In this document: piece by piece, positions 12,895 through 43,851 of the stretch
Position numbering within the stretch: the stretch's first letter is position 1
Layout: every line of letters starts with the position of its first letter
Virus record (IMG/VR): IMGVR_UViG_3300050139_000048
Location: 1-52,577 of that record
DNA: 52,577 nucleotides
Source: a virus
Strand: one strand, 5' to 3'
The notes under the pieces: model-generated
The model's database searches: none
What the model saw: the letters and a program-made list of their open reading frames with translations, nothing else
Told to the model about the DNA's origin: nothing
Program-made: the position numbers and the translations under genes

Positions 12895-12896
12895 CC

Positions 12897-14462: not shown

Positions 14463-14526
14463 CCATGACTGCCCTCCTCCCCTTCATCGGCCCCGCATCC
14501 GAGGTCACGCCATCCGCCAGGGTGTC

Positions 14527-15931: not shown

Positions 15932-15982
15932 TTTGCCGTGCTCCTGTTTTTGACTTCCTTCAACGCCTGATTAGTTCGTCGA

Positions 15983-16345: not shown

Positions 16346-16357
16346 CGCGCACCCCTA

Positions 16358-25898: not shown

Positions 25899-26789
25899 TT
25901 AGGTAATTAACCTACCGTGCCAATCGCGCTTTCCCAAATATATTTTTCCAGTCTCGGACAATTCCCCTGCCTCCAAACAGCGGCGTCTGATTGCAGCCCA
26001 TCTAGCAAGATGGAATGCTTTTATCTTTTCCCTTGCTTCGGTGGAATGAACCTTACCTTTGTTCGCCTCAGACAGTTTTAATTTCTGTTCTTCGGACATT
26101 TTGCATCCAAGTCTAGTGCTTGGCTTGCCCTTCTTTGCGGCGGATAACTTTGCTTTTTGTTCCTCGGACATTGGCACACCTTTTTTCTTGCTTGGCTTGC
26201 CGATGCGGATCAAAGACATTTGTTTCCTAACCTCCTCGGATCGTTTTTTCCCTCTGTTTCCGTCCGCAATCTTTTTTATTTGCTCCGGTGTGCGACGTTT
26301 GCCCTTGTTGGCCTTCGCAATTTTTGCAATGTGTTCGGGAGATAGCTTCCTTCCCAAGTGATACGCCAATGCTGCCGCCATCGTTTGCGGCGAAAGCGGT
26401 CTGCCTCTCTTTTGAGCCGCTAATCTTGCGACCGTCTGCGGGTCGTGCTTCATTCCAGAAGCGCCCTCGCCGCCATCAGTGTAGTTTGCCAATGAGCAAC
26501 CGCGCCGACGGTATAAATCAATCGCCTCGATTTCAACCAGCATCGCTAATTCTTCGTCAACATCCTTTACTAAAAAAGACTTGTGAAATCCGCCGTCTTT
26601 TTTAACGATGTTTTTCCAATGAAGATTACGACCGTCGCGTTTTCTCGCGCGCTTGCCGTTACCTTTTCCGATATAGAAAGGCTCACCAGTGCTCAGGCGA
26701 CTATGAACGTAAACATAGAATTTTTTATCGGTCGGCAGAAGGCGGCGCACCACCCCATTTTTTCCGCCTGCTACAATCGCGTCAGCCAT
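25899..26789 (-). CDS. GIY-YIG homing endonuclease with NUMOD3 repeats, 296 aa
   Basis: Near the N-terminus FYVYVHSR and, after GEP, FYIGKGNGKRARKR form the GIY-YIG core, with E and N of the nuclease in LVEIEAI and LANYTDGGEG. The rest is about seven NUMOD3-like helical repeats (SPEHIAKIAKANKGK, SEEQKAKLSAAKKGK, and so on) that bind DNA. I chose ATG 26789 (MADAIVAG), preceded by AGAGG. It sits between tail terminator and tail tube genes. Its leader is shared with the unrelated endonuclease at 34978. Confidence 0.9.
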   Translation of the reverse strand: MADAIVAGGKNGVVRRLLPTDKKFYVYVHSRLSTGEPFYIGKGNGKRARKRDGRNLHWKNIVKKDGGFHKSFLVKDVDEELAMLVEIEAIDLYRRRGCSLANYTDGGEGASGMKHDPQTVARLAAQKRGRPLSPQTMAAALAYHLGRKLSPEHIAKIAKANKGKRRTPEQIKKIADGNRGKKRSEEVRKQMSLIRIGKPSKKKGVPMSEEQKAKLSAAKKGKPSTRLGCKMSEEQKLKLSEANKGKVHSTEAREKIKAFHLARWAAIRRRCLEAGELSETGKIYLGKRDWHGRLIT

Positions 26790-26808
26790 GATGCACACCT
26801 CTGGTCAG

Positions 26809-28036: not shown

Positions 28037-28417
28037 CTAGCTGCTGTACTTTTCGCACATCATTTCGAGGAACTGCTTGCGTCCCTCGATAGCGGCCGGG
28101 CCACCCACGATCTGCATCACGGTGTCGGATGCTTCGCCGTGAACCGTGATCCGCATGCTGCTGTCGACGTCATCGCGCCAGCGCATCCTGATCCGCACCT
28201 GGTTGCGCGCGACGTCCAGCCCCATCTTCACCGACTCCGCACGGCTCGGTAGGGCGTCCTGCACCTGCGCCCAGAAGCGAACCGCGATAATCGGGCTGCC
28301 GAGACCATCGCGCACCAGCGGCACCCAGGTAACGATCTCGGTCCCATACGTGCTGTCCTGGATCACTTGTTTTTTCTCAATCGTGATCTCGCGATCGAGC
28401 GCTCCGGCGCGCGTCAT
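28037..28417 (-). CDS. Head closure / head-tail adaptor protein
   Basis: 126 residues. LDREITIEKKQVIQDSTYGTEIVTW and RFWAQVQDALPSRAESVK followed by RIRMRWRDDVDSSMRI match the phage head-tail joining family (SPP1 gp16/HK97-like). It closes the portal channel before tail attachment. Confidence 0.8.
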   Translation of the reverse strand: MTRAGALDREITIEKKQVIQDSTYGTEIVTWVPLVRDGLGSPIIAVRFWAQVQDALPSRAESVKMGLDVARNQVRIRMRWRDDVDSSMRITVHGEASDTVMQIVGGPAAIEGRKQFLEMMCEKYSS

Positions 28418-28433: not shown

Positions 28434-28670
28434 TCAGGCCGATGCACCATCTGCAGAGCCATCCGCACACGGTATCCGCTCCCTCTCGTTCGCACATATA
28501 GGCGGTGCGCCGGCATTGGATGCAGCGCTCTTCAAGATTGATTGCGCTTCTGTCTCGGTCAGCGTCCGCCCGATCGCTCCGCAGTCCTTGCACCGCATGA
28601 ACCATTCAACCGGCCTCCGAGGATGTTCAAACGAATCCGGGTACATCTCCGCCCCGCATTGACACTTCAT
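28434..28670 (-). CDS. Zinc-finger protein, 78 aa, with a competing frame at its end
   Basis: MKCQCGAEMYPDSFEHPRRPVEWFMRCKDCGAIGRTLTETEAQS carries two C-x-C/C-x2-C zinc half-sites. After residue 45 this frame loses zinc motifs, while another frame, ending at 28414 with the ATGA overlap to the next gene, continues with CIQCRRTAYMCERE and CGWLCRWCIGLMDG. That suggests either a frameshift joining the two parts or two overlapping genes. The ATG overlaps the upstream stop. Confidence 0.6.
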   Translation of the reverse strand: MKCQCGAEMYPDSFEHPRRPVEWFMRCKDCGAIGRTLTETEAQSILKSAASNAGAPPICANERERIPCADGSADGASA

Positions 28671-28849
28671 TTCGGGCGCCCCGCCTGCGCATCGCGGCGC
28701 CGCTGACGGTTCTTTTTCAGCGTGTGCAGGTACTGAAAACCGATTCCATATTTAGCCCCGGTCGCCTTGAGCGTCGCTCCGGCGTCGAGCTCGATCAGCG
28801 CGGCGCGCACGGTCTCAGATGGAATTGTGGCGTTACCGTTCGCCTTCAA
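28667..28849 (-). CDS. Small helix-turn-helix protein, 60 aa
   Basis: VRAALIELDAGATLKATGAKYGIGFQYLHTLKKNR looks like a helix-turn-helix with a basic C-terminus. It overlaps neighbours by 4 bases on both sides. It might regulate the cassette or bind DNA during packaging; only the fold is suggested by the sequence. Confidence 0.6.
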   Translation of the reverse strand: MKANGNATIPSETVRAALIELDAGATLKATGAKYGIGFQYLHTLKKNRQRRRDAQAGRPK

Positions 28850-29394
28850 AGCGCCCCCGATGGATGAACATATTTCACCAGCCGAATCAGCGTGCCTCCG
28901 AAGGTGTCGCCGGCAAGCAGCTCGTGCTCTATTTCGGCCACGATGCGATTGCAGCCGAATCCGTCGCGTTCCGGTTCGTAATAGTCATCAAACACGACCA
29001 CGGCGCCAGGAGCGAGCATCTGCCGCACCCATTCCCAATCGGACTTGATCGTGTCGACCGAGTGGCCGCCATCGATGAAAACGAAGTCGGCATTTATCCA
29101 GCGTGAACAAAATGCCGGGAGCGTGTCCACCGTATTGCCCCGGATCAATTCGAAATCCGACCCTGCGAGCGCCTGCGCCGCCTGTTCCCGCGTCGAGCGG
29201 CCCTTGCCGTTCGATTCGCGCCGGTCGGTTTCGTCGCTTCCCGCTTCCCACAGATCGAAGCCGAAATACCGCTTGCAGTGCGCCTTCAGTAGTCGAGCGC
29301 GCGCGCCGCGGTGCGTGCCGATCTCAATCAGCACGTTCGGCTTTTTCTCGGCGGCCAGCGCAATCAGTTGGTCGTAGCGCATCGGTTCGCCCAT
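28846..29394 (-). CDS. Class I SAM methyltransferase (Methyltransf_24-like), 182 aa
   Basis: Motif I is VLIEIGTHRGARARLL near residue 20. FVFIDGGHSVDTIKSDWEWV supplies the acidic post-II/motif IV region, and APGAVVVFDDYY follows. These features match small-molecule or sugar O-methyltransferases of the Methyltransf_24 group, not DNA methylases. It is the last enzyme of the 7.6 kb modification block. The start is uncertain (29394 or 29382); it overlaps the upstream gene by about 20-30 bases. Confidence 0.75.
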   Translation of the reverse strand: MGEPMRYDQLIALAAEKKPNVLIEIGTHRGARARLLKAHCKRYFGFDLWEAGSDETDRRESNGKGRSTREQAAQALAGSDFELIRGNTVDTLPAFCSRWINADFVFIDGGHSVDTIKSDWEWVRQMLAPGAVVVFDDYYEPERDGFGCNRIVAEIEHELLAGDTFGGTLIRLVKYVHPSGAL

Positions 29395-30071
29395 GAATAG
29401 AAGTGCTTTCGGATCGTCGGCAGATCGCCCGACTCGTGAATCTGAAACTGGTTCGGCAACAGCCACGGATAACCCTCGCCATACGGCACGCCGAGCCCGA
29501 TAGGCGAGACGTTCAGGTCGAACTGCATCACCGGATACGGCGACAGCATGCAGAGCAGCCCAGGCCCGTTCGTCACGAAGAAATTCATTTCCGCGCCCGC
29601 ATACAGGGCCACCATTTCATGCGGGCCGAGCGGCTCATCCTCATAATCCGGTATCACCCGCGCGCCAATCTCGGCCGCGAACGTCCGCCAGGCGTCTTCA
29701 TTCGAGTTGCGCGTCGGCGCGCGCTGCGTATTCCTCAAAGTCACCGTGTAGCGCTCAGTCCCCGCTGGCAGCACCGACTTGATGCGCGGAAACTCGACGC
29801 CCGCGCGCGCGAGCCGGATCAGGTCTTTCTGATGGTAGGGGGCAAGTTGCCTGCCTTCCGTACCGATAGACCGCTTCAGCCCGAGCAACGGCGGGCCTTC
29901 CCACAGCAGCGTTTCAAACCGGCGCATCACCGCGGCAGCCGGCCATTTGCTCGTTGTCGGATTCCGAGTATCAAACACGATTTCCGTGGCGCCGGCCTGC
30001 GCCTGCATCACCAGCCAGGGGAAAAAGTCATACCCGGCGATTTTCTCCGACAGCCGGTAAAGCGCTTTCAC
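29364..30071 (-). CDS. Glycosyltransferase-like protein of unknown family, 235 aa
   Basis: Starts MKALYRLSEKIAGYDFFPWLV. A Rossmann-like second half reads YTVTLRNTQRAP, then MVALYAGAEMNFFVTNGPGLLCML. This 'count and scan for residents in the second domain' layout resembles GT-B enzymes that contact nucleotide sugars with a GPG/NGPG loop. I cannot name the family. It overlaps the radical SAM gene by 4 bases. Confidence 0.5.
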   Translation of the reverse strand: MKALYRLSEKIAGYDFFPWLVMQAQAGATEIVFDTRNPTTSKWPAAAVMRRFETLLWEGPPLLGLKRSIGTEGRQLAPYHQKDLIRLARAGVEFPRIKSVLPAGTERYTVTLRNTQRAPTRNSNEDAWRTFAAEIGARVIPDYEDEPLGPHEMVALYAGAEMNFFVTNGPGLLCMLSPYPVMQFDLNVSPIGLGVPYGEGYPWLLPNQFQIHESGDLPTIRKHFYSWANRCATTN

Positions 30072-31099
30072 ATGAATGCCTCATCCGCGTCGTACCCGGC
30101 CACTTCGTTGATCGCCTTGTTCGTCCCCGAATACCGGCATTGCTGGCAGCCGCGCGCGTTGAACTCGCGAAAGTTCGCAATGGCGAGCTCGCGCCACACG
30201 TCCTTGAACCGCCGCCCCTTGATGCTGGCGATCAGCCCGCGCGGCGAATAGGCCAGGATGCAACAGCGGTACAAATTCTCGTCAGCACCAATCCACGTCT
30301 TGAAAAACTGATAGGCACAGCGGTCATAGTCCTGCGCGCCGTGCAGCATCGAATCAAATTCGGTGTCGAATCGGTAATCCACGTCGAAGCCCTGCTCGGC
30401 AAGGGCGGTCACAGACTTTTCCGCCGCCCGGATGTGCTCGATCATTTCCGCGCTGAATAGCTCGATGCCGCGGTCGTCTTGTGGCCTCACCCGGAAGCTC
30501 TGTGCGCCCAGGCTCTTCGCCAGCACTGCCGCAGCGTGAATCTCGCGCCAGTTCTGCGACGTCACCACGAAGCTGACATTCGTTTTCCAGCGCTTGATCG
30601 TTTCCAGCGACCGCGCGAAATGCTCCGGTTCGACCTGGCGCACCGCGGCGTAGGTCTCCGCTGTCGCCGAGTCCAGGCTCACGCGCACCCAGGAAGCCGT
30701 CGATAAATCCTGCATCCGCACGCCGTTGGTAATCAGCCCCCATTTCAAGCCGCGCGCGTTGATCGCTTCGATTACCTGCGCGAATTGCCGGTGAATCGTC
30801 GGTTCGCCGCCGCCGGTCAGCTCGATCCCCTTCACGCCCATTTCGGCGCAGTCGTCCAGGATATCGATTACCTTGTCAAACGCCAGCATCCGGTTCGGGT
30901 TGTGGTTCTCGCCGTCGGCGAACATGCCGCGCAGCCCAGGGCTTGATTCGTCGCGAAAGCAGCAAAATTTACAGTTCTGATTGCACAGGTCCGACAGGAT
31001 CAGCTGCACATGCACCGGCGGCGCGACTGTGCCATCGCGCAGCGCCTGAACCCTGTCCGGGAATCCGAACGCCTTGAGGCTTGAGTAACGCTCGCTCAC
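30068..31099 (-). CDS. Radical SAM enzyme with C-terminal Cys cluster, 343 aa
   Basis: The cluster-binding motif is CNQNCKFC at about residues 39-46 (C-x3-C-x2-C), followed by ELTGGGEPTIH, the GGE SAM-binding motif. The C-terminal third has more Cys (DRCAYQFF, RCCILAYSPRG, GCQQCRY), suggesting a SPASM- or twitch-like auxiliary Fe-S site. Such enzymes often modify peptides or sugars. The GTG at 31099 overlaps the upstream stop (GTGA). In a phage structural operon this is unusual. Confidence 0.85.
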   Translation of the reverse strand: MSERYSSLKAFGFPDRVQALRDGTVAPPVHVQLILSDLCNQNCKFCCFRDESSPGLRGMFADGENHNPNRMLAFDKVIDILDDCAEMGVKGIELTGGGEPTIHRQFAQVIEAINARGLKWGLITNGVRMQDLSTASWVRVSLDSATAETYAAVRQVEPEHFARSLETIKRWKTNVSFVVTSQNWREIHAAAVLAKSLGAQSFRVRPQDDRGIELFSAEMIEHIRAAEKSVTALAEQGFDVDYRFDTEFDSMLHGAQDYDRCAYQFFKTWIGADENLYRCCILAYSPRGLIASIKGRRFKDVWRELAIANFREFNARGCQQCRYSGTNKAINEVAGYDADEAFM

Positions 31100-31668
31100 G
31101 CCTGATTCCACATGCAGCGGTCATACTTCGGCCCGGCGAAAATGATCTTGCCGCGTGTCGGCTCCGGGCCGCGGCGTAGATCGCAGATCACCAGCCCCTT
31201 GAGGCGGTACGTGCTCAGGGCATAGTGATACCCGAGACTGGCCATGCTGATGATCAGGTCGGCCTCGAGCAAGTCGCGTGTGCCAATATCGTGCCAGCGG
31301 TCCACCGTCACGCCGTTCGCGCCGAGCAACATTTCGGTCAGCACGCGCGAGTTATACACGTCCGGCTTGTCACTGTACCCGGCGCCGCCCTCGCGTGAGA
31401 CCGTGTCGCCATCGAGCAGTTCCAGTCGCGCATCCGGGTACCGGCGCTTCATGAACACTTCCAGCGCCGCCATGCCGCAGCCGATTTCGAGGATGCTATC
31501 GACGCGCTCCGGGAGGTGCGGCTCCATCCCGGCGAAGTCCTCGGCGATGTGGGCGGCATACCGGCGCTTTACCTCTTCCGGGTCGGGCACCTTGCGCTCG
31601 TTGTAGCGGCTGCGCTGCCACCGGATGTACGGGCCGCAGGCGTCTGGGATGATCAGGTCAGGCTGCAT
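31096..31668 (-). CDS. Class I SAM methyltransferase-like protein, 190 aa
   Basis: ILEIGCGMAALEVFMKRRYPDARLELLDGD is a clear SAM-binding motif I plus acidic loop. LLEADLIISMASLGYHY continues the fold. Target unknown; the lack of DPPY/NPPY argues against DNA amino-methylation. The ATG at 31668 overlaps the end of the 51-aa gene by 11 bases. Confidence 0.7.
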   Translation of the reverse strand: MQPDLIIPDACGPYIRWQRSRYNERKVPDPEEVKRRYAAHIAEDFAGMEPHLPERVDSILEIGCGMAALEVFMKRRYPDARLELLDGDTVSREGGAGYSDKPDVYNSRVLTEMLLGANGVTVDRWHDIGTRDLLEADLIISMASLGYHYALSTYRLKGLVICDLRRGPEPTRGKIIFAGPKYDRCMWNQA

Positions 31669-31813
31669 TTTTTCGGTGTAGCGCATGAAGCAAATTCAGT
31701 ACCGACCCAATCGCCTGTAGCGTCACCAGCGCTAGAATCTTTCTATGCCGCTCTGCCTCGTGCTTTTCGTGGACCTCGCGCGCCAGCAGGCGCTTTCGTT
31801 TATTGCCGCTCAT
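31658..31813 (-). CDS. Small basic helical protein, 51 aa
   Basis: MSGNKRKRLLAREVHEKHEAERHRKIL is highly charged; a hydrophobic helix follows (ALVTLQAIGSVLNLLHAL). It starts with ATGA on the stop of the GT9-like gene. It could tether the enzymes to a membrane or to each other. The family is not recognised. Confidence 0.55.
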   Translation of the reverse strand: MSGNKRKRLLAREVHEKHEAERHRKILALVTLQAIGSVLNLLHALHRKNAA

Positions 31814-32574
31814 TTCAAAAGGCTCCTCAATTCGTCAAAAACCATCCCATGCGTAATCCGGGCCATCCATTCGGCGCAGTGCTTGCACGGCAAGCGGTTC
31901 CCGCAGGCTTCGCCCAGGCTGGCGCCCAGGTTCCGGTGCATTGGGTAGCCGGTCAGTTCCACCGGCGTGAACCCGCCCATAATTACCACCGCAGGCACGC
32001 CAAACGCGGCCGCAGCATGGTGCGCGCCGCCCTCGTGGAGTACCGCCCCCCGCGCTCCCGCAATGACGCTACACGCCGTTCTAAACGATCCTGTCGGCAC
32101 GAATTCAGCGCCGTCCAGCACCTTCGTGCCCGGCGCCCCCAACTGCGTTACTGGCATGCCTGCAGCGATGAACAGCTTCGCCAGCCGCTGCCAGAATTCC
32201 CAAGGCCAGCGCTTGTTTGGACTCGCCCCCGGCTTGATGTGCGGCTCAAGGATCAGCCTGCCGGGATATTTCGCCCCGAACGCCTTTTCATCTTTACTAA
32301 AGTACAGCTCGCCCACGTCCGGCCGGAAATCGAGGTTGTACGCCCACCGCTCGGCAGTCTTTCCGGTGTGGTACGGACGATTGTTCGCCATATCGCGCGC
32401 CGGTAAGTCTTGAAAATCCCCGCACGCGAGCGGCTTAGCGATGCGCGGGTTCCCGTCCCAGATCGGCGACCAGCGATTCGCCAGCCCCTTGTACGTCACC
32501 CGGCACTTGCGCGGGTCGGTCTGCTGTGCTTTCCGGGCGGCCCCGGACAGCATAATTTCGTCGCCCAGACCCAC
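31810..32574 (-). CDS. Glycosyltransferase family 9 (heptosyltransferase)-like protein
   Basis: 254 residues starting at GTG 32574. GLGDEIMLSGAAR is the GT9 N-terminal loop. NKRWPWEFWQRLAKLFIAAG resembles the W-x-x-L-A box of LPS heptosyltransferases, and HEGGAHHAAAAFGVPAVVIMG resembles the D-x-G-x-x-H donor loop. GT9 enzymes transfer heptose or related sugars. Here it sits in a phage structural operon, so its acceptor is unknown. The Cys-rich end (CGNRLPCKHC) is unusual for GT9. Confidence 0.75.
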   Translation of the reverse strand: MGLGDEIMLSGAARKAQQTDPRKCRVTYKGLANRWSPIWDGNPRIAKPLACGDFQDLPARDMANNRPYHTGKTAERWAYNLDFRPDVGELYFSKDEKAFGAKYPGRLILEPHIKPGASPNKRWPWEFWQRLAKLFIAAGMPVTQLGAPGTKVLDGAEFVPTGSFRTACSVIAGARGAVLHEGGAHHAAAAFGVPAVVIMGGFTPVELTGYPMHRNLGASLGEACGNRLPCKHCAEWMARITHGMVFDELRSLLK

Positions 32575-33071
32575 TATTTCGTTTCCCTAATGACAAGCCG
32601 CGTGTTCGGCGCGAAGAATGGCGGCAGATATTCCTTCCACCACTCGAACGGCTTGATCGTGACATGCACGTTTTCGCCATCCTCGAAGCGGATATGCTTC
32701 GACGGGCGGCAGCATACGGACAGGAATGCCCACTGTTTTGCGTGGCCTGCAATCTCGCGCACCACGGCGTCGAGTTCGTCTTCGGGCACGTGCTCTAGCA
32801 CGTCCGTGCAAATCACGCCTTGAAATCTCCCGGATGGTTTCACGTGAAATTCCTCAACAGCCGGGTCATAGAGCGTCGGCACTTCCACACCCCACACGAC
32901 ATGCGCGCGCTCGCGGGTGTACTGCCTGCCAAGCCCGCAGCCATAATCGAGCAGGCGCCGCGACTTGAATTCAGTGACCAGTTCCGCGATCGCCGGCACG
33001 AACGCGAGCAGCGACATGCCTGGAAATTTTCCTTGAGCGTGCAGCTTTTTGTAATCCTCAAGGTGCTTCAT
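32574..33071 (-). CDS. Class I SAM methyltransferase, 165 aa
   Basis: LLDYGCGLGRQYT is motif I, and GVICTDVLEHVPEDELDAVVREI is the typical motif IV/V of Methyltransf_11/23-type enzymes. Ends TIKPFEWWKEYLPP. Small for the family, which suggests a small-molecule or sugar acceptor. Its stop overlaps the GT9-like GTG (TAGTG). Confidence 0.8.
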   Translation of the reverse strand: MKHLEDYKKLHAQGKFPGMSLLAFVPAIAELVTEFKSRRLLDYGCGLGRQYTRERAHVVWGVEVPTLYDPAVEEFHVKPSGRFQGVICTDVLEHVPEDELDAVVREIAGHAKQWAFLSVCCRPSKHIRFEDGENVHVTIKPFEWWKEYLPPFFAPNTRLVIRETK

Positions 33072-33876
33072 TTAGCATCCGCCAGCATGTCCCGTCTCGC
33101 ATCTCAGAAAGTCGCCACTGATTTGACGCCAGCACTGCGGTCCAATGCTCGCGATCCACGTCCATGCGTGGCGCTTCGATCTGCGCCAGGTCTGACAAGC
33201 CCATCGCCGAAGCACCGCACGGTTCGGTAGCAAATACCGGCACGCCGCCGAGCAGCGCCTCGACCGCGGCATTGCTGCAATGAGTCACAAGCGCCCAGGC
33301 GCCGGCAAGATCGGTGGATAGCGGCGTCGGCACCGAAGTTTTGACGAAACCTTTCTGACTCAAAATATCGGCGCCCTTAGCATCGTTCCAACTCACCTTT
33401 GCCCGCACGCGCAACTCGCGGTCGGTGTGCTGGCGCAGCGTGGCTAGCGTCTGATCGAGCCAGTCATCGGCCGAAAATCCGAACGTCGCGCCGAACAGCC
33501 GGCCGGGCGGGCAGACCACGATATGCGCGCCGGCGGTTCGCCACGGCTTGATTGTCAGCCCGAGCCGCCCCCACCGATCGGCTCCGCCGGCCGGGACAGG
33601 TTCTGAGCCGTCGACCTGCAGGGCGTTACGCGTGATGCGGAAATAATTTGCCTCAGTCTTACCGGGCGAGAAGTAGCCGTTGTCGCCGTAAAACCAAGTT
33701 CGCCCCTCGCGCTGCGCCTGTCTCAGCGTCGGCAGCAGACCCCGTAATGCGCCATACATGAACACGTCGCCTGGCAGCAGCGGCGCCGGCGGCACAATCG
33801 GACACTTGGCTCCGGCGGCGAAAGCGGTGCAGACCAGCGCCGACCACTTATGCCCGCTCGAATATGCGTTGATCAT
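33058..33876 (-). CDS. Capsule-type glycosyltransferase-like protein A, 272 aa
   Basis: GDNGYFSPG, WGRLGLTIKPWR, HIVVCPPGRLFG and a C-terminal HCSNAAVEALLGGVPVFA are shared in order with the next gene upstream (33873). HCSNAAVEALLxGVPV resembles the donor-binding loop of KpsC/KpsS-like and GT-B capsule enzymes. The acceptor is unknown. It overlaps the methyltransferase by 14 bases. Confidence 0.6.
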   Translation of the reverse strand: MINAYSSGHKWSALVCTAFAAGAKCPIVPPAPLLPGDVFMYGALRGLLPTLRQAQREGRTWFYGDNGYFSPGKTEANYFRITRNALQVDGSEPVPAGGADRWGRLGLTIKPWRTAGAHIVVCPPGRLFGATFGFSADDWLDQTLATLRQHTDRELRVRAKVSWNDAKGADILSQKGFVKTSVPTPLSTDLAGAWALVTHCSNAAVEALLGGVPVFATEPCGASAMGLSDLAQIEAPRMDVDREHWTAVLASNQWRLSEMRDGTCWRMLNEAP

Positions 33877-34667
33877 GCCAGCAGCGCCCGGAAAGCTGTT
33901 CCGTCCTCAATCTCGCCCAGCGACCATTGCGCCCAGGCGAGCCGCTGCAGCGCCGGCAGCCGGTCAATGTCCTGCGCTGGATTCTCGGTTTGGACGAATT
34001 CCAACCCGTCATAAGTTGCAGTCTTGCAAATCCAGGCCGGCGCGCAGCAAATCACCGGGACGCCAGCAATCAGGCTATGCACTCCGGCGCTACTCGACCA
34101 GATCACGGTGCACCACGCCCTGGCCAGATCCTCGGCCAGCGGCTTCACCGGCGGGCTATTGCCAGGGTGCGGCCGGACCACAATCGGACGATTGGTTAAC
34201 TTCGCCAGCCGCTTAGCCGTGTCGGCGGCCCATGTTGGCGGCATCATCGTTTCCGGGCGCCCGAATGGCCTATTCGGTGCAATCACGATATGATCGCCGT
34301 CTGCCCGCCAAGGCTTCAGATCAATGCCCAGGGCGTCCCATCGGGTTCCGGGCCCCTCCGGTGTCCACCCCCTGCCGTTGTGGTCATGGCGGGCCAGCGC
34401 GTACCATTGGCGATCCTTTTGATCGTGCGGAGAGAGCCCGCCCGGCGCGAGGTAGCCGTTTTCGGCGACGACGACAATCCCGCCTGCGGCTTCGAACCGG
34501 GTCGCGAGTTCATGCGTCGCGCCGTAGCGATTCCACGCCAGCAACAGATTGCCCGGTTTTCCCTGCGGCGCGTCTGTCCGCACCTCATACCCGGCCGCTT
34601 TCATGCCGGCCGAAAAGCTACCGTGCCGATAAACCGTGTCGCTGCGTGTCAGATTCCAAGCCATCAT
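33873..34667 (-). CDS. Capsule-type glycosyltransferase-like protein B, 264 aa
   Basis: A paralog of the neighbour: VAENGYLAPGG, WDALGIDLKPWR, HIVIAPNRPFG, then RPIVVRPHPG and SSSAGVHSLIAGVPVIC, ending SLGEIEDGTAFRALL. 'RPHPG' and the S-x-G-V-x-S-L-x-x-G-V-P-V loop are typical of capsular polysaccharide transferases. ATG at 34667 overlaps the upstream stop (ATGA). Confidence 0.65.
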   Translation of the reverse strand: MMAWNLTRSDTVYRHGSFSAGMKAAGYEVRTDAPQGKPGNLLLAWNRYGATHELATRFEAAGGIVVVAENGYLAPGGLSPHDQKDRQWYALARHDHNGRGWTPEGPGTRWDALGIDLKPWRADGDHIVIAPNRPFGRPETMMPPTWAADTAKRLAKLTNRPIVVRPHPGNSPPVKPLAEDLARAWCTVIWSSSAGVHSLIAGVPVICCAPAWICKTATYDGLEFVQTENPAQDIDRLPALQRLAWAQWSLGEIEDGTAFRALLA

Positions 34668-34981
34668 GTGCTTGGCGCCGTCACAATGCAGCCTTCAGCA
34701 ATCAATCGCTCAATAGCCTTTTTTCCGCATTTACTTTCGTGATAGGGCGTAACTCTGTTTTTACCAAAGGCGGCCATCGCACACGCCTTGCATTGCTTGC
34801 TTTGTCCTGATTGAATTTTGCCTGCGCGGACTATCGCCTCATTCCCGCACTCGCATCTGACTTTATAGTATGTTTGATTCGGGTTCGCTTCCGAAGAAGG
34901 CGGAGGAGAATCACCGTCCACCACAGTCCAACGATAAAACTTCGCGCTCACGTCGCCGGGTATAACCCATTTCTTTTTCAT
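34664..34981 (-). CDS. Zinc-module protein, 105 aa, related to mobile endonuclease N-termini
   Basis: KFYRWTVVDGD, VRCECGNEAIV, SGQSKQCKAC reproduce the zinc module of the protein at 12011 (RFGRLVVI, CQCDCGN, SGKSKSCGC), then the sequence diverges into a basic helix. It may be the remnant or a stand-alone form of that mobile module. It overlaps the HNH/AP2 gene and the glycosyltransferase gene by 4 bases. Confidence 0.5.
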   Translation of the reverse strand: MKKKWVIPGDVSAKFYRWTVVDGDSPPPSSEANPNQTYYKVRCECGNEAIVRAGKIQSGQSKQCKACAMAAFGKNRVTPYHESKCGKKAIERLIAEGCIVTAPST

Positions 34982-35517
34982 GGCAGCAGCCCGAGCATTT
35001 TGTTCGTGCGGGCGAACTCGCCGAAAAGCCGAACCGCGGCCGCATCGTAAGCAGCCGCAGCGCTTCTAGGGTCAGCAAAACAACCCAGAAATTGCCGACG
35101 CTTCTGCGGACCTATCCGAGCGACCCAGGTGCTCCACTTTCCATTCTTGTACACGCCCTTGAAGCCGCTCTTGTTTCTAACGTGCTTCGCAATGTTTCCG
35201 TTATTCTGCGTTCCGGTGCAGGGTCTCAGGTTCTCCAACTCGTTGCGCAATCCTCCGCCTTTTTCGTGGTCCATCATTGGGCCAGGCCATTCGCCTTTGA
35301 TATACAGCCACACAAGCCGGTGCGCCCTATAAACGCGGCCATCGATTTTTATCTGCCAGTAGCCTTGCTTCGTTTTGCATCCGGCTACGCATCCCGCTTT
35401 GGCGTGCCTCATGTTGGATATCCAGCGGAAAACCCCAGTCGCCGGATCGTAATGCAAAACCTCGCGCAAGCGTTCTACTGTAATCAGGGCTCGTAATGCT
35501 AGAATTCGGTCAGCCAT
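34978..35517 (-). CDS. HNH homing endonuclease with AP2 DNA-binding domain, 179 aa
   Basis: RAHRLVWLYIKGEWP, then MMDHEKGGGLRNELENLRPCTGTQNNGN, is the HNH fold (H-N-K/N). The C-terminal SGFKGVYKNGKWSTWVARI and RRQFLGCFADPRSAAAAYDAAAVRLFGEFARTN are a classic AP2 domain. This combination marks free-standing homing endonucleases of phages. The ATG follows AAGGAG. Its leader (35537-35592) is shared with the GIY-YIG gene at 25899. Confidence 0.9.
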   Translation of the reverse strand: MADRILALRALITVERLREVLHYDPATGVFRWISNMRHAKAGCVAGCKTKQGYWQIKIDGRVYRAHRLVWLYIKGEWPGPMMDHEKGGGLRNELENLRPCTGTQNNGNIAKHVRNKSGFKGVYKNGKWSTWVARIGPQKRRQFLGCFADPRSAAAAYDAAAVRLFGEFARTNKMLGLLP

Positions 35518-35536
35518 TGCCGCAGACTCCTTGAAA

Positions 35537-35592
35537 GTCGGGTGGTGGTTAGAAGCCGGGCAGCGCGAGAACGCTGTTCGGCTTCGCCCATT
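35537..35592 (-). ncRNA. Structured hairpin leader of the HNH/AP2 gene (copy 2)
   Basis: In the transcript GAAGCCG and CGGCTTC form the outer stem, AGCG/CGCT an inner stem with a 6-base loop, and TAACCACCAC follows. It overlaps the upstream stop and lies 19 bases before the ATG, the same distance as in copy 1 (26809-26864). The outer stem differs from copy 1 by a compensated pair. Confidence 0.65.
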
Positions 35593-36439
35593 ATGCCCCT
35601 ACTTTTAGAGCGTCCGCAAGCGGCATTTTCTCAAATCCAATAGCTGAACCAGGGCTGCAATTCAAAACCATCGTACCCGTCGCTGCAATGGCACGCTCAC
35701 CAGCAGAAAAAGCCCTTCTATAGCATTCGTAAGCTGCATCCGGCTCAGGCACCTTATGCTCTCCGAACCAGTGCGTTTTCCCGTCCAGCGCCTTCTGGCC
35801 ATCGAAGCCGAGCAAGATCACCGTCTTCGCGCCGGCCAAGATCGCCAGATTCAGCGCCTGGTAGCCCGAATTCCTTCCTGTCACCAGCGCGCCGGGATCG
35901 AGCGAGATCCCCTCGCCGTGAAGCGGGAAGTGCTTGTTTCGCAGTAGGTGCACCGCCGGATCGTCGACGCTCATGCCGGTGTTCTGGATCGAGCATTTTT
36001 CGCCAGCGAAGGCGACGAACTCAGGCCGCGCCCTATGCCAGTTATGCCAAATACTGTCGGCAAAATAATTCACATCGGCGAACGGAACAATTCGATAAGC
36101 ATCGTTGATTGCAATCGTATGAACGCGCCCATCCTCGACAGCGCACCGAACCAGTTCCACCTGCGCCAACGTCAACGATGGCCCGCCGCCAAACAAAACA
36201 ACTGCCCCGCCTTCCCAATCGCGCGCCACCCTGCTGAAACGATCAAACGGCCAATCCTTGCTGCGCCGCAGGATGCCGGTATCGACCGGTGCCGAGCCAG
36301 CGTTCAACAGATCGGCCTCGTTCCTGCCGATCAGGAACCGGGCCCGCGTCGGCGAGGCGAAAAACATCGCGCCGGGCTGACCTTCCGCGACGCCGCGCGC
36401 CGTGGCGCGCATGTGCGCGGTCTTTGGCTCCGCGATCAT
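35591..36439 (-). CDS. DUF115 / motility-accessory-factor-like protein, 282 aa
   Basis: LFGGGPSL (about residue 80), TIAINDAYRIVPFADVNYFADSIW, and GRNSGYQALNLAILAGAKTVILLGFD form the Rossmann core seen in DUF115 (MptE/Maf-like) and in some sialyl- or pseudaminyl-transferase relatives. These proteins handle nucleotide-activated sugars or decorate proteins with them. It is the first gene of the modification block and overlaps the connector gene by 4 bases. Confidence 0.7.
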   Translation of the reverse strand: MIAEPKTAHMRATARGVAEGQPGAMFFASPTRARFLIGRNEADLLNAGSAPVDTGILRRSKDWPFDRFSRVARDWEGGAVVLFGGGPSLTLAQVELVRCAVEDGRVHTIAINDAYRIVPFADVNYFADSIWHNWHRARPEFVAFAGEKCSIQNTGMSVDDPAVHLLRNKHFPLHGEGISLDPGALVTGRNSGYQALNLAILAGAKTVILLGFDGQKALDGKTHWFGEHKVPEPDAAYECYRRAFSAGERAIAATGTMVLNCSPGSAIGFEKMPLADALKVGA

Positions 36440-37128
36440 GCCATCGACAGTTCGCTGCGCTCCGGCCTCAGCACATCTTCTGCCACCTTCAGATAGAGCG
36501 GCATGAGGTCCTTGTCCCGATCGTAATGCGCCTCTACCCAAAGTTTGCAAGCCTGTTTGAACCTTACCGGCACCAGCGACAGGTCGGGACTCGGATCCGG
36601 ACTGCCGACTCCGGCGGCGAACCCCGCGCGGAAGGTCACGCGCAAATCCCCGCCTATTGCCCAAATAGCGCTATTCAGCGGAACCAGCCGCGGCCACTTG
36701 GATTTCGGTTCGCGCACTTCGTAAGTCGCCGCGTCGATCTCCGTTTCGACGCCGGCATTGTCCACGGAGGCGAACGACGTGATCGCGATAATCGGGGACT
36801 TGCGCAAAACGATCTCGCGTCGGCGTAGCCAGTGGTTCCATTCCCCCTGGCCGAACCAGCCAAACCCGAGCATCGGCGTGACGGTATTGCCATCCGTTAG
36901 GTAGGGATATCGGCCCCGGAGCGTGAGGCGCCAACTTTGCTCCACGAGAGCGCGCCCGGTAAAGTCCTCGGCCCACTCGCGCGCGCCTTTGATCAGGTCC
37001 AGGATGTCGGCATCGTTGGACGTGACTTCGGCGAATTCGCGCAAATGTCTTTTGGCACTCGCCAAATCTATTGGCTCGACGTCCGGGCCGGAGACGCGCT
37101 CCAGCATGAAGGGTGCGCCGTGCATCAT
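36436..37128 (-). CDS. Head-tail connector protein (HK97 gp6-like)
   Basis: 230 residues. IDLASAKRHLREFAEVTSNDADILDLIKGAREWAEDFTGRALVEQSW is the standard opening of gp6-like connectors, followed by beta structure and a helical end. It forms the ring under the portal. ATG at 37128 overlaps the upstream stop; a second ATG at 37125 is possible. Confidence 0.85.
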   Translation of the reverse strand: MMHGAPFMLERVSGPDVEPIDLASAKRHLREFAEVTSNDADILDLIKGAREWAEDFTGRALVEQSWRLTLRGRYPYLTDGNTVTPMLGFGWFGQGEWNHWLRRREIVLRKSPIIAITSFASVDNAGVETEIDAATYEVREPKSKWPRLVPLNSAIWAIGGDLRVTFRAGFAAGVGSPDPSPDLSLVPVRFKQACKLWVEAHYDRDKDLMPLYLKVAEDVLRPERSELSMA

Positions 37129-38135
37129 TTGAGCCTCACCGGCCCGCGGGCCTCGGCCGCCGGCGCGGCGCCGTCCTTGCCGTCGCGCCCGCGCTTCGTG
37201 CTGAGACGCCACGCATCGGACGTGCCCGGCTTATCGGTTGTTGCGCGCTGAGCAATCCAGCCGCTACCGTCCCAGGAAACGTGATCCCCGGACTTGTACT
37301 CGCCATCACGCCATACGCCGCGGTCAAGCACCATCGGTACGGTGAAAGCCGAGACCGCCTTCGTGCCGCTGGTGAGCATCGCGGCCACCTCAAGCTCGCG
37401 CGGATCCTCGCCCTGCGTCACGACTAGCGCCGAAACGCCTTCGACTATGACCACCCAACCCGCCTTGACCAATCCATCGGTCACAGGATCGGTCGCGCGC
37501 GCCGCCCGAATCAGCCCGCCTGCATGGCTCACCCAGGTGCCGCGCGGGTAGCTGCGCGATTCATCGATGCTCGGCAGAACATCAAGTTCGGCGGCATCGC
37601 GCCCATCTCGCCCGTCAGCCGCCAGCGTCTGCGGAATCGATGCGACCGCCTTGTCGACGGCATCGCGCACCATCAGCGCAACCGTGTCCGGGTGAATGCT
37701 GGCGCCGTCCTTTCCGGGCGCGCCAGGATCGCCCTTGACCGATGCGCCGACCGGGCCTATCTCTCCGACCGGACCGCGGTCGCCGGGATCGCCTTTTTCG
37801 CCCTTGATGGACTCGCCGCGTTCGCCAGCCGGCCCTTGCAGACCACGCTCACCAGCCGGTCCAGGCGCACCGTCTTTCGCTGGCGGAATATCTGCGACTG
37901 CGCGATCTACCTCGGCGCGGATGAATTCAGGATCGGCATCCTTGCCGGGATCGCCCTTATCACCCCTGATCGACTCCCCAGCGTCCCCCTTGTCACCCTT
38001 CGGGCCGGCTGGAATCGCGGTGAGCCGCGCATCCAGTTCGTTCACCCGCTTTGCTACGTCTCCGACCAGGCCGGACACGTAGGCGCGTACTGCGACGAAT
38101 ACCTCGTCGGCCATCTTCTCGATTTCAGGCAGCAT
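37125..38135 (-). CDS. Collagen-like head/connector fibre protein, 336 aa
   Basis: After an N-terminal helix, residues about 45-165 hold Gly-X-Y triplets (GPKGDKGDAGES, GAPGPAGERGLQGP, GDRGPVGEIGP), interrupted by a short helix. The C-terminus has two carbohydrate-binding-like modules (YPRGTWVSHAGGLIRA, YKSGDHVSWDGSGWIAQ), then a last GRDGKDG. It is probably a trimeric triple-helix fibre on the head or neck. ATG 38135 has GGAG seven bases upstream and overlaps the portal stop. Confidence 0.75.
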   Translation of the reverse strand: MLPEIEKMADEVFVAVRAYVSGLVGDVAKRVNELDARLTAIPAGPKGDKGDAGESIRGDKGDPGKDADPEFIRAEVDRAVADIPPAKDGAPGPAGERGLQGPAGERGESIKGEKGDPGDRGPVGEIGPVGASVKGDPGAPGKDGASIHPDTVALMVRDAVDKAVASIPQTLAADGRDGRDAAELDVLPSIDESRSYPRGTWVSHAGGLIRAARATDPVTDGLVKAGWVVIVEGVSALVVTQGEDPRELEVAAMLTSGTKAVSAFTVPMVLDRGVWRDGEYKSGDHVSWDGSGWIAQRATTDKPGTSDAWRLSTKRGRDGKDGAAPAAEARGPVRLK

Positions 38136-39558
38136 TGGCGCGCTCCAGATCATCGATCCTCGCCTGCATGAACTTGAATTTCAGCGAGTCGGAGAAACCC
38201 TTTGCTCCGGCCACGGCCTGAGCGTCGTTTGCGGCTTGATCCGAGCCGCCGGAGGCTGGCGCCGCGGGCGCGAGCTTCGACGACGCGAACGGATCGGGCA
38301 GCGCGTCGCGCTTCGCGAGTGCCGCGAGGCTGTAATTCTGCTGCTGCAGGTAGCACGCGTCTCCACCATCAACCGGCTGCATGTCCTCTCCAGCGCGCGC
38401 TTCATTCGGCTTCATCCAGCCGTCTTTGACGGCGATGCCTTTCGCCGTAAAGCGCGCCGCCGTATCCATGCGCATCAGGTTATCGAGGTCGAATTCGACG
38501 TGATAATTGGACGGAAGCGCAAGGCCGACATCAAGCAGAGCCTCGGCCGACTCAATCAACGCCTGCAGACAGTCCGAGTAATAGGTCTGATTCAGGGATT
38601 CGACGCTGGTGCGCAACGGTTCTTTGTCCCCGAGTTTCCACATCGGGACATGGAAACAGCGCGCGACGTCTTCAACAGTCCATTTCAACTGCTCTATGAG
38701 TTGCATTACATCTGCGGCGAGTCCCATAGACACATACGTAAGTCCGTTCCCAAGAACGGCAGTTCTGCCGATATTCTGGCCGCTATAGTTTGCCTCCCAT
38801 CGGGCCTTCATTTCGGTCGCGTCCGGGTCGCTTATCGATCCGGGTGCCGTCAGTATCCCGGAAGGCCGGCTACCATTAGAGAAAAAGTGCGTGCTATTGG
38901 CCTGGATTCGGTTGCCCATCGTGGCCGAGACACCGCAGGCATAGATCGGCGAAACGCCGACGAGCGGATGCCAAAGGCTGACCATCGTGTCATGGATGAT
39001 CTCCGAAGCTGGGACGGTGACCGTTTCGACCAGCCCAGAGAGGTGATCCGCCATCAGTTCGTAATACACATCGCCGTTCAGGGCGACCAACGGCTTTACG
39101 CGCTGCGCGTCAAGGACGTACATGGCGTTGACTACACCGCGCGCGTCTCGGCCCTTGAGAATATAGGCATTGCCATAGAGCAACTTGGAGACGATCCATT
39201 GCTCGATGAACTTCAGCCAGATTTGAAAGTTGTTAGGCTTTTCAAGCAGAGGCAACCAGGGGGAATTCACTTCAACTTCGGCGCTGATTCCGGCGTCATC
39301 CTCGACCATCAGGTCAATGCCGAGTTTCGCAATGTCGGCCGCGATCAGCGTAACGCATGAAAAGACGGCGGAGAAGGCGAGTATCGAACGCTGCGCGTCG
39401 ACCGTCACATGCTGCTGAAATGCGCCGCTGAACGACTCACGGATCATACCAAACCAGCCGCCACCGGACGGCACGGCCTGAAGGACCTGCGCCTGCGCTC
39501 TAACGCGCGGTGCGAGACCGGCGGCCATGGTGGCAATCAGAGATTTACCCGGCGACAT
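38125..39558 (-). CDS. HK97-family portal protein
   Basis: 477 residues. Family landmarks are SAVFSCVTLIAADIAKLGI, LLYGNAYILKGRD, HDTMVSLWHPLVGVSPIYAC, and ESLNQTYYSDCLQALIE. It forms the dodecameric channel at the capsid vertex for DNA packaging. The C-terminus is a low-complexity helical tail. It overlaps the small membrane gene at its start by 14 bases. Confidence 0.93.
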   Translation of the reverse strand: MSPGKSLIATMAAGLAPRVRAQAQVLQAVPSGGGWFGMIRESFSGAFQQHVTVDAQRSILAFSAVFSCVTLIAADIAKLGIDLMVEDDAGISAEVEVNSPWLPLLEKPNNFQIWLKFIEQWIVSKLLYGNAYILKGRDARGVVNAMYVLDAQRVKPLVALNGDVYYELMADHLSGLVETVTVPASEIIHDTMVSLWHPLVGVSPIYACGVSATMGNRIQANSTHFFSNGSRPSGILTAPGSISDPDATEMKARWEANYSGQNIGRTAVLGNGLTYVSMGLAADVMQLIEQLKWTVEDVARCFHVPMWKLGDKEPLRTSVESLNQTYYSDCLQALIESAEALLDVGLALPSNYHVEFDLDNLMRMDTAARFTAKGIAVKDGWMKPNEARAGEDMQPVDGGDACYLQQQNYSLAALAKRDALPDPFASSKLAPAAPASGGSDQAANDAQAVAGAKGFSDSLKFKFMQARIDDLERANAA

Positions 39559-41666: not shown

Positions 41667-42338
41667 TCAGTTTCGCAAGGACGCCCATCTCGCGCTCTGC
41701 GCGGCAGACATTCTTTTGCGAGTTTCCAAAGACGCTTTGTTGCCTAGAGCGTTTTTATTTCCACGCAATGTGATTGATAGTTTCGCAAGCGACTCTGGGG
41801 AACGCTTCTTTCCTTTATGCGCCAATGCCATATTGGCCCGCGCCTGTAGTGTGTGCTTGTACCCCTTGCCGGCTGCTGACAATTTTGCGCGTGTTTCAGC
41901 AGAAACAACGAACCCGAGTTTGTATCGCTTCCCGCGTTTTAACTCGGATATCTTTTTGCAGGCTTCCGGTGACAACTTATGTCCGGCCCCGTGTTTATTT
42001 CCCATTTGCGACGCCGCGATCTTCGCGCGCGTTTCAATAGACGGTTTATTCCCTAAGCAACTGCCAGCCGTGCGACACACGTTATATTCAGGATTCAGTG
42101 CGTCAATCGCACGCTGCTCGTACATGATCAAATTTTCTTTCGAGCAGATCAGCAACTTACGGAACGTAAATGCGCTCTCGCCATCCTTTGTCCAAGCGCG
42201 TTGAAGGTGCAGCGTATGATGCACGCCGCGCCGCAACTTGCTGATATGCGAACGCCAACGCTTTTCAAATTTCACCGCTGAGCCGATATACCGGCTGCCG
42301 CTGGCAACATGGACGATTTCGTAAATGCCGCTATTCAC
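41667..42338 (-). CDS. GIY-YIG homing endonuclease with NUMOD3 repeats, 223 aa
   Basis: SGIYEIVHVASGSRYIGSAVKFEKRWRSH is the GIY-YIG core, with catalytic Arg in KRWRSH and later Glu in MYEQRAIDALNPEYNVC. Four or five NUMOD3-like repeats follow (SIETRAKIAASQMGN, SPEACKKISELKRGK). GTG at 42338 overlaps the protease stop (GTGA). Its closest relative here is the gene at 43096, on the other side of the protease. Confidence 0.9.
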   Translation of the reverse strand: MNSGIYEIVHVASGSRYIGSAVKFEKRWRSHISKLRRGVHHTLHLQRAWTKDGESAFTFRKLLICSKENLIMYEQRAIDALNPEYNVCRTAGSCLGNKPSIETRAKIAASQMGNKHGAGHKLSPEACKKISELKRGKRYKLGFVVSAETRAKLSAAGKGYKHTLQARANMALAHKGKKRSPESLAKLSITLRGNKNALGNKASLETRKRMSAAQSARWASLRN

Positions 42339-43099
42339 AGGTACACGATGCCTTTTTTTCTTTGATCCATCGGGACGGTGGATTTTATCGGCTTCATGGG
42401 ATCGCGGGCCATTGCGAAAACCACCGGCCTTGCACGAGCAAAAATTGATTGAGTTGCGGCAGCCTTCGCTTTCTTTTCCGCGATGGCCACATCAGCGAAT
42501 CCGTTGGCGACGGCTTCTGGGCCGGTCATCCAGGTTTCTTTTTCCATCATCTTGAGCACATCAGCCACAGGCTGCTTGCTGCGGCTCGCGTAGAGTTCAG
42601 CGACGGCGGTATCAATCTTGTCGAGCATGTCGGCCATGTCGCGCATGTCGTTACGGTTGCCGACAACCATGCCCCAGGCGCTGTGGATCATGAGCATCGC
42701 CGCCGGCGCTACGCGAATAGTCGATCCAGCCATAGCGATTATTGAAGCCGCAGACGCAGCCATTCCAATCACATTCACCGTCACGGCGCCAGGATGATCG
42801 ACCAACAGGTTATAAATTGCGATACCTTCGAAAGCATCTCCGCCTGGGCTGTTGATTGTGACCAGCACTGGCGACTTTCCGAGGGCCTGCAACTTGTCCT
42901 TCACCATTTTGGCGGTGATGAAATTGTCAGTCCAGCCGGATTCTCCGATCTCTCCCAATATCTCGATCTCGCCATCCCCGGCTTTCGCCGCGGCCCGTAT
43001 AGACTTGTCCCACCTGGAAACAGCAGACTCGGGAGCCTTGAATTTCATGCCCTCTGGCTTCGCGTCCATACGAATCGCCAGCATCTTTGATTTACTCAT
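42335..43099 (-). CDS. ClpP-type prohead protease
   Basis: 254 residues. TINSPGGDAFEG forms the oxyanion loop, GMAASAAS holds the nucleophile Ser (about 116), and MIHSAWG the catalytic His (about 139). It would process the capsid scaffold region during maturation. It is sandwiched between two paralogous GIY-YIG genes, each overlapping it by 4 bases. The end (KSTVPMDQRKKGIVYL) may have been set by the insertion. Confidence 0.92.
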   Translation of the reverse strand: MSKSKMLAIRMDAKPEGMKFKAPESAVSRWDKSIRAAAKAGDGEIEILGEIGESGWTDNFITAKMVKDKLQALGKSPVLVTINSPGGDAFEGIAIYNLLVDHPGAVTVNVIGMAASAASIIAMAGSTIRVAPAAMLMIHSAWGMVVGNRNDMRDMADMLDKIDTAVAELYASRSKQPVADVLKMMEKETWMTGPEAVANGFADVAIAEKKAKAAATQSIFARARPVVFAMARDPMKPIKSTVPMDQRKKGIVYL

Positions 43100-43851
43100 A
43101 GCCGAATCTCCTGTCTACGTTTCTCCCACGCGACAACCATTCTGGCGCGCGTCTCAGGGGAGCACTTCTTGCCTTTCTTGTAGGCATTACCAATCTTCGA
43201 TGCCGACATCTTCGCCTTCGTGTCATCAGAAAATGTTCTTCCCTTCAACGCGGCGGTAAATTTAGCGACTACCTCGGGAGGGCGCTTGCGGCCAATTAAC
43301 GCGGCGGATATTTTTGCACGATGCTCCGCCGATATTCGTTTTCCCTTCTGCGCCTCAGAGTTCTTTGCGCATGCCTCGGGAGACATTTTTCTTCCGCGAA
43401 TTATCGCGGCTCTTTTTTCTACCGATTCGGGAGACTGCCGCTTTCCAATTCGAGATGCGGACATTTTCGCGCGCGCTTCCGGTGATGCCTTTCGACCAAT
43501 GTTTCTCTTATGACCCACATGCGCAGCGGACATCTTTGCCCGCGTCTCCGGTGTATGCGTCAGCCCCAACGCACTGCCGGCCACCTTGCAAGTGTTGTAC
43601 TCGGGGCGCAGTCCGTCCATTGCGATCTGCTCATACATGATGAGATTTTCACGCGAGCAAATGAGTAACTTGCGAAAATGAAAGACGCCGAGTCCGTATT
43701 TATCATGTGCGCGCTGCAATGCGCGACTGTGGTGCTTTCCTTTTTTCAAACCTAGACGATGGCCCTTCCATCGTTCCGAAAAATTCACAGCCGATCCGAC
43801 GTACCGCTTTCCGTTCGTCGTATTGACGATCTCGTAAATGCCGGTGTTCAT
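43096..43851 (-). CDS. GIY-YIG homing endonuclease with NUMOD3 repeats, 251 aa
   Basis: TGIYEIVNTTNGKRYVGSAVNFSERWKGH is the GIY-YIG core; MYEQIAMDGLRPEYNTC supplies the acidic part. Seven NUMOD3-like repeats follow (TPETRAKMSAAHVGH, SPEARAKMSASRIGK, and others). Paralog of the gene at 41667. The stop overlaps the protease ATG (ATGA), and the start overlaps the upstream stop. Confidence 0.9.
   Translation of the reverse strand: MNTGIYEIVNTTNGKRYVGSAVNFSERWKGHRLGLKKGKHHSRALQRAHDKYGLGVFHFRKLLICSRENLIMYEQIAMDGLRPEYNTCKVAGSALGLTHTPETRAKMSAAHVGHKRNIGRKASPEARAKMSASRIGKRQSPESVEKRAAIIRGRKMSPEACAKNSEAQKGKRISAEHRAKISAALIGRKRPPEVVAKFTAALKGRTFSDDTKAKMSASKIGNAYKKGKKCSPETRARMVVAWEKRRQEIRL

Follow-up and report, generated by a model that had tools for sequence, protein, structure and literature searches.

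Why would a phage carry, between the genes for its head and those for its neck, a long run of genes resembling enzymes that handle bacterial sugars? The question is raised by a virus record of 52,577 bases (IMG/VR record IMGVR_UViG_3300050139_000048; the window, below, is this whole stretch), whose late operon lies on the minus strand. Within it is a block of 13 minus-strand genes, from gene A (35591) through a 60-residue open reading frame (ORF; 28667), bounded by the head-tail connector gene on one side and by a Cys-rich ORF preceding the head-closure gene on the other. An initial annotation had proposed that the block is a dedicated pathway for a methylated glycan or similar mark on virion proteins, or for altering the host surface, and the idea of a dedicated glycan and methyl pathway is supported here. 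We judge it fairly likely that the block exemplifies a mobile cassette for glycan assembly, carried in the late head-neck operon, that glycosylates virions; the particles of viruses with this cassette probably bear an unusual sugar of bacterial type, added by the virus itself. From sequence and predicted structure, its enzymes are assigned as several of glycosyltransferase type, three methyltransferases (one a weak match) and one radical S-adenosylmethionine (SAM) enzyme.

The evidence that carries this reading is recurrence. A profile of the GT9-like protein G found 528 relatives in IMG/VR viral contigs; the best 80 of these were retrieved, and 86 non-duplicate GT9 loci were surveyed with hidden Markov models (HMMs) built here from the same loci. 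D/E proteins were recognised in 75 of these, an FkbM methyltransferase in 54, A in 52 and a GT8-like enzyme in 44; as the HMMs come from the same loci, and the A and D/E loci share ancestry, these counts should be read as co-occurrence and not as probabilities. A recognised virion gene was present in 68 of the 86 loci, and recognised neighbours lay almost always on the same strand (493 same, 5 opposite). The recognised gene just before the cassette was a connector (14), portal (11) or major capsid protein (MCP; 9) gene, and that just after it a head-closure (31) or connector (17) gene. Scans with A, G and J gave the same core order in loci L005, L006, L007, L009, L029 and L032, among others; a check for shared gene order in related phages, suggested with the initial annotation, thus found the core at the same head-neck place in many loci. 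Because this order repeats in dozens of contigs, the block is far beyond chance. One gene cluster from the survey, c5, was considered as a connector and rejected, since it is the GT8-like glycosyltransferase.

The core also appears to travel as a unit. In a Mantel-type test the distances of A, D, E and G inter-correlated, with rho from 0.41 to 0.70 (A-D 0.57, D-E 0.70, A-G 0.50, D-G 0.48; 0/499 permutations each), whereas cassette genes compared with portal or connector gave rho between -0.01 and 0.19 (A-portal, D-portal and G-connector each 0.03). The genes of the core are therefore inherited together and pass from one structural lineage to another. The window itself fits this: its portal is 45% identical to the portals of L018, L020 and L021, whereas for A, D, G, K, head closure and gp10 the nearest counterparts are those of L005, L007 and L032 or of L029. 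Judging by gene order, the A-D-E-G core, though mobile, tends to settle at the same place between head and neck genes.

Protein A (35591 to 36439, 282 residues) is a predicted nucleotide-sugar transferase of the DUF115/MptE-like and CstII-like type. It matched phrog_4603, annotated 'alpha-2,3-sialyltransferase', with an E value of 5.3e-32 over positions 2-174 of 178, and the eight best matches of a profile of 16 relatives against the PDB were all CstII sialyltransferases (GT42; E 0.005-0.016). Stretches of the form GGGPSL and NSG...LLGxD are present. A Pfam scan of A returned MptE-like only and no CST family, the score against PF01973 (DUF115/MptE-like) being 15.9 bits (E 0.011), below the gathering cut-off of 34.6. 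The first 55 residues match a small ORF of its own, its tail rich in Ser and Pro, that lies just upstream of A in L005 (2284-2688), and an ORF of the same cluster is found upstream of A in L006. At the cassette position of L021 (6540-7172) there is a GT29-like protein (sialyltransferase family; E 1.6e-4, just below the cut-off), which may be a further enzyme of the type using cytidine monophosphate (CMP) sugars.

D (33873 to 34667) is predicted to be a GT-B protein with the fold of the retaining 3-deoxy-D-manno-oct-2-ulosonic acid (Kdo) transferases, and E (33058 to 33876) is its paralog, with 31% identity. For the AlphaFold2 model of D (predicted local distance difference test score, pLDDT, 86.8) the 10 best Foldseek matches were all KpsC or WbbB (E 9.6e-7 to 9e-4), and VIA placed KpsC, WbbB and KrkA at Z 10-13 (best 13.2), the next unrelated protein scoring 9.4. 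KpsC also supplied the top three matches of the D/E family profile (E 0.0027-0.0058); the identity of D to these Kdo transferases is about 12%. Retaining Kdo transferases need the aspartate of a QXXXD motif and bind CMP through a (K/R)XHP motif (PMC12887879, PMC10148158), and RXHP is common to CMP-sialic acid and Kdo transferases (PMC12887879). D and its near relatives have RPHPG, and the model and motif together suggest that D probably binds a CMP sugar. Where loci hold two such genes, RXHP is found in 30 of 40 first genes and 6 of 40 second genes, and the window E is without it. No QXXXD nucleophile was found at the relevant strand in D or E, where Phe, Tyr, Met or Ile aligns with KpsC D160 in a weakly aligned region. 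In overall fold and RXHP motif D is thus like KpsC (GT107), WbbB (GT99) and KrkA (GT140), but these have the QXXXD nucleophile, and for want of it we have not filed D and E as retaining Kdo transferases. Since the HP motif is common to CMP-sialic acid transferases, D might instead catalyse an inverting reaction. The pair is possibly a new glycosyltransferase family.

G (31810 to 32574), the query by which the cassette was found elsewhere, is GT9 heptosyltransferase-like. Its score against PF01075 was 22.4 bits, barely over the cut-off of 22; the family profile matched WaaF and WaaC with E values of 5e-6 (WaaF) to 1.3e-4, and the alignment conserves the MGxGD start and C-terminal Cys residues. 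K (29364 to 30071) is a short GT-B protein that gave no match to sequence families or, by tblastn, to phages, and for which structure prediction suggests a heptosyltransferase fold. Its AlphaFold2 model (pLDDT 88.5) was placed by VIA nearest WaaF (Z 11.8), WaaC (11.4) and TibC (10.0), the first other protein scoring 9.5, and weakly by Foldseek with WaaC (E 1.8e-3). Homologs of K with 54-56% identity come directly after G in L005 and L029. TibC, a bacterial autotransporter heptosyltransferase, glycosylates protein serines directly (PMC4358343); the predicted model of K has its fold, and K is shorter than TibC, itself a dodecamer with an iron finger. Longer K homologs, of about 360 residues, lie near terminase-like genes in L030 (4942-6051) and L031 (7710-8786), and the gene that follows in L031 looks, by eye, oxygenase-like.

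The remaining enzymes are of the SAM-dependent kinds. F (32574 to 33071) is a class I SAM methyltransferase (Methyltransf_23, 4e-9) with homologs of 29.7-31% identity in Caulobacter phage cassettes. L (28846 to 29466) is a Methyltransf_24 methyltransferase (PF13578, 1e-15); its 103-bp overlap with K implies that L probably starts at a coordinate below 29466. I (31096 to 31686), directly upstream of J and overlapping it, is a probable methyltransferase with a weak match (MTS, E 0.0073), and in L002 and L048 the position just ahead of the radical SAM gene is taken by a different methyltransferase-like gene. J (30068 to 31111) is a radical SAM enzyme (Radical_SAM, PF04055, 4e-15) with the CX3CX2C motif (CNQNCKFC), invariant in its relatives, and a C-terminal set of cysteines like those of an auxiliary cluster; its family profile matches SkfB (1e-12), MoaA and BlsE. 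Cysteines C43, C47, C50, C265, C283 and C325 are invariant in four sequences; compared with the SPASM/Twitch pattern, the last three, conserved across just these four, are fewer than a full SPASM set. Relatives of J have 50% identity in L002 and 38% in the L048 cassette. J is missing from most cassettes: it is seen in L048 and L049 and in L002, which is without the core in the DNA examined, and L084 has a distant radical SAM protein. In an uncultured podovirus, a relative with 28.6% identity anchors a parallel cassette flanked by the head protein and the stabilisation protein.

Profile searches and structure prediction, the check recommended with the initial annotation, have thus upheld its enzyme classes, with the models of D and K in glycosyltransferase folds. 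Its DUF115-like call for A holds at the level of a DUF115/CstII-like class by profile search, its KpsC-like guess for D and E agrees with a Foldseek E value of about 1e-6 between D and KpsC, and its GT9-like call for G with the Pfam and WaaF/WaaC profile matches. K, described as transferase-like, has gained a modelled heptosyltransferase fold; J remains a radical SAM protein with additional conserved C-terminal cysteines. Of the three methyltransferase calls, Pfam bears out F and L, and gives a weak match for I.

How might such a set of enzymes work? Being placed with the late genes, they would be active at the time of virion protein synthesis, and none of the block proteins has a clear membrane segment. 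Late in infection, cytoplasmic enzymes could draw activated sugars from the host pool, A and D using acidic sugars linked to CMP (Kdo or a nonulosonate, for example), and G and K using ADP-heptose (ADP, adenosine diphosphate). Before assembly or in its course, a short glycan would be built on a freshly synthesised virion protein; the methyltransferases F, I and L and the radical SAM enzyme J would cap or remodel this glycan. The likely gain would be an altered particle surface, affecting adsorption, stability or concealment from binding molecules. Some relatives carry sugar genes of their own: L029 has a nicotinamide adenine dinucleotide (NAD)-dependent epimerase and a UDP-glucose dehydrogenase-like gene in its cassette, L092 an HldE-like protein upstream of its GT9 and K genes as well as a sugar epimerase, and Synechococcus phage SynMITS9220M01 a phosphoheptose isomerase and an ADP-heptose epimerase near J and F homologs. 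These make a CMP-linked acid sugar (A, D) together with heptose (G, K) the leading guess. The L029 cassette (8675-16677 of a 37.8-kb contig) is extended after K by a possible 2-oxoglutarate oxygenase (by eye) and a cupin, by pieces of a thiamine pyrophosphate enzyme on either side of an HNH-like gene, and by genes for a sugar epimerase and a UDP-glucose/GDP-mannose dehydrogenase-like protein.

The acceptor would probably be a head, neck or tail protein. The initial annotation had named the nearby collagen-like and carbohydrate-binding module (CBM)-like structural proteins as plausible acceptors. The collagen-like protein (37125 to 38153, minus strand) does belong to its family (PF01391, 1.8e-8; phrog_1289, 1.8e-50), whereas the CBM-like match on this protein fell below the cut-off (PF02839, E = 0.03). 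Collagen-like repeats also occur in L015, L016, L018, L020, L021, L029 and L031 and in none of the other loci examined. As many cassette loci show no such GXX repeat in the DNA examined, we reject the collagen-like protein as a universal acceptor; in the window it is a possible one. Stretches rich in Ser and Thr (up to 40%) lie in the MCP (410-439), the N-terminus of the tail tube and p360; such a composition does not by itself point to a glycosylation site.

Several observations weigh against virion glycosylation. We infer acceptor, donor and linkage of the proposed glycan alike. The scanned ORFs of the window included no recognised gene for making sugar nucleotides, and for this reason the donors would be host-derived. 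The chemistry of D and E is uncertain, to judge from their motifs, with the catalytic Asp missing in both and the HP motif missing in E. No virion gene was recognised in 18 of the 86 loci. Five of these were long; among the four looked at more closely (all but L072), L080 and L093 have terminase and head genes, and L068 showed DNA polymerase and helicase genes and L092 sugar-pathway genes, with no virion gene recognised in either. Finally, by analogy with KpsC and WaaC, which act on membrane lipids, the related enzymes of the block could modify host envelope precursors.

This last point leads to the main alternative: in lysogeny or late in infection, the cassette would remodel the host envelope, whether the core of lipopolysaccharide (LPS), the capsule or some lipid-linked glycan, and so prevent superinfection or keep released particles off debris. 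We think this unlikely, though lipids are the normal substrates of KpsC- and WaaC-type enzymes: KpsC-like enzymes normally build capsule (PMC10148158), WaaC/F- and CstII-like enzymes capsule or LPS, and temperate phages carry glycosyltransferases that alter host serotype (PMC12619734). Against it, the cassette usually sits inside the head-neck operon, and the association with virion genes persists even in the Caulobacter jumbo phages, where the cassette adjoins tail genes. Neither a flippase, an acyltransferase or a membrane glucosyltransferase nor a clear transmembrane enzyme was recognised in the block, although WaaC and KpsC, being soluble or peripheral, make the missing membrane segments compatible with envelope remodelling.

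A further alternative divides the block, with the A-D-E-GT9 core glycosylating virions and I, J, K and L forming a separate accessory pathway, for example for peptide or cofactor modification, that shares the insertion site. The absence of J from all but a few cassettes and the MoaA/SkfB/BlsE-like sequence of J would suit such a division. We nevertheless hold it improbable, given that in L048 the J relative is flanked by D/E and GT9, all on one strand, that K comes immediately after G in L005 and L029, and that reading frames overlap through most of the window block. DNA hypermodification, in which the glycosyltransferases and methyltransferases would decorate modified phage bases, has very little to recommend it: glycosylation of DNA by phages is known (Pyle et al. 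2024, as cited in PMC12619734), but no base hydroxymethylase of the TET/JBP or thymidylate-synthase type was found in the window, the enzymes resemble envelope and protein glycosyltransferases, and the cassette lies among structural and not replication genes. Glycosylation of the virion by the whole cassette is thus the reading we prefer.

The layout around the cassette is that of a late operon, with the order terminase (44100), protease (42335), major head protein (40084), portal (38125), collagen-like protein (37125) and connector (36436) ahead of the block, and head closure (28037), a tail-completion/gp10-like gene (27301) and the tape measure (19943) downstream. The flanks are a gp6-like head-tail connector or adaptor (36436 to 37131; phrog_442, 4.7e-17) and a head-closure or head completion protein Hc1 (28037 to 28417; Phage_HCP, 9.4e-15), the latter 68% identical to its counterpart in L007 and 61% to that in L005. 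These families and the coordinates, with both flanks also on the minus strand, confirm the earlier description of overlapping same-strand genes between connector and head closure. Block genes overlap by 1 to 103 bp, mostly by 1 to 29 bp, except for a 73-bp gap before an HNH gene, and in nearly all block ORFs the guanine-cytosine content at the third codon position exceeds that at the second. Searched by megablast, the 24-kb late region had no DNA-level match in 50,697 phage records, so the window phage is without a close relative among them.

All ORFs listed in the initial annotation are open on the minus strand at their coordinates, but two block genes had been overlooked. These are an HNH and AP2 endonuclease (34978 to 35517; phrog_99, 9.8e-60; AP2, 1.4e-4; HNH_3, 2.9e-4) and a 105-residue Zn-ribbon ORF (34664 to 34981; phrog_374, HNH endonuclease, 6.9e-7) that, from its match, is probably part of the same inserted unit. 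Lying between A and D, they break the run of enzymes there; as neither was recognised at the corresponding spot in related loci, they would represent a mobile endonuclease insertion outside the pathway. The 51-residue basic helical ORF (31658 to 31813) and the 60-residue ORF (28667 to 28849) have no convincing family match, and the helix-turn-helix label given to the latter, made by eye, is not borne out. The 78-residue Cys-rich ORF at the junction of cassette and head closure (28434 to 28670) has weak matches only. Homing-endonuclease or NUMOD3-type genes also occur amid structural and other genes at 41667-42338, 43096-43851, 50706-51335 and 25899-26798, so that, by sequence assignment, the window phage is loaded with homing endonucleases besides the HNH unit of the cassette. 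The window also has two DNA methyltransferases, one fused to a ParB-like part (46319-47623; phrog_498, 2e-130) and the other close to the end of the record (51780-52532).

Named relatives show the core in other settings. In the giant Caulobacter phages CcrColossus (gp126-131) and CcrSC (gp516-511), A, D, E, a GT8-like enzyme, a methyltransferase and GT9 follow directly after tail protein genes on one strand, so that these phages share the core with the window; K and J were not recognised there, and the cassette lies between tail protein and lysis genes, outside the head-neck gap. The phiCbK genome paper (PMC3556154), in a term search, made no mention of glycosyltransferases or glycosylation. 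Pseudomonas phage D3 orf7 (phrog_4603) is an A homolog with 29.7% identity at the head-neck position, between the major head protein and Ad1; unlike in the window, with its full core, D, E and GT9 were not found in D3, where a methyltransferase (orf13) lies nearby. Prophage-like loci with core and virion genes occur in metagenome-assembled genomes (MAGs) of Kiloniellaceae, Rhodospirillaceae and other Alphaproteobacteria (L113, L115, L119) and in a gammaproteobacterial MAG (L121), and the cassette-bearing viruses are apparently mostly viruses of Alphaproteobacteria. Bradyrhizobium macuxiense BR 10355 (L120) has the GT9 homolog alone among the cassette and virion families searched and so gives no clean host assignment; its gene is perhaps a prophage remnant.

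Glycosylation of phage particles as such is known. PMC12619734 and PMC11256854 cite it for the mycobacteriophages Che8, Rita and relatives (Freeman et al. 2023), and treat glycosylation of tailed-phage particle proteins as unusual and documented for a few mycobacteriophages. As cited there, the glycans are on capsid and tail-tube subunits and are made by phage-encoded glycosyltransferases, and the window likewise encodes proteins of glycosyltransferase type. Mycobacteriophages are, by contrast, phages of actinobacteria, and the glycosyltransferases of Maravista lie near the 3' end of its genome (PMC11256854), those of the window in the head-neck gap. The enzyme set and its usual head-neck location are not found described: our literature search, with most subscription papers outside it, turned up no paper uniting phage, DUF115 and glycosyltransferase, nor one describing the cassette. 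Within the literature searched, the initial statement that no system with this combination has been described therefore holds.

More tentatively, we can envisage all of this jointly as a widespread, undescribed phage system that places an inner-core-like glycan on virion proteins, composed of an acidic 8- or 9-carbon sugar and heptose, methylated and edited by the radical SAM enzyme, in which D and E would be a new, nucleophile-less family using a different chemistry, the Kdo-transferase fold being retained in both and the CMP pocket in D. With D and E, nature would then have supplied an experiment in how the fold of a retaining Kdo transferase could work without its nucleophile. If the glycosylation is real, it would be directly testable in laboratory systems, namely the Caulobacter CB15 phages and phage D3. 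And if hundreds of phages carry a dedicated head-neck cassette of this kind, virion glycosylation would be common, and dependent on the sugar pools of the host.

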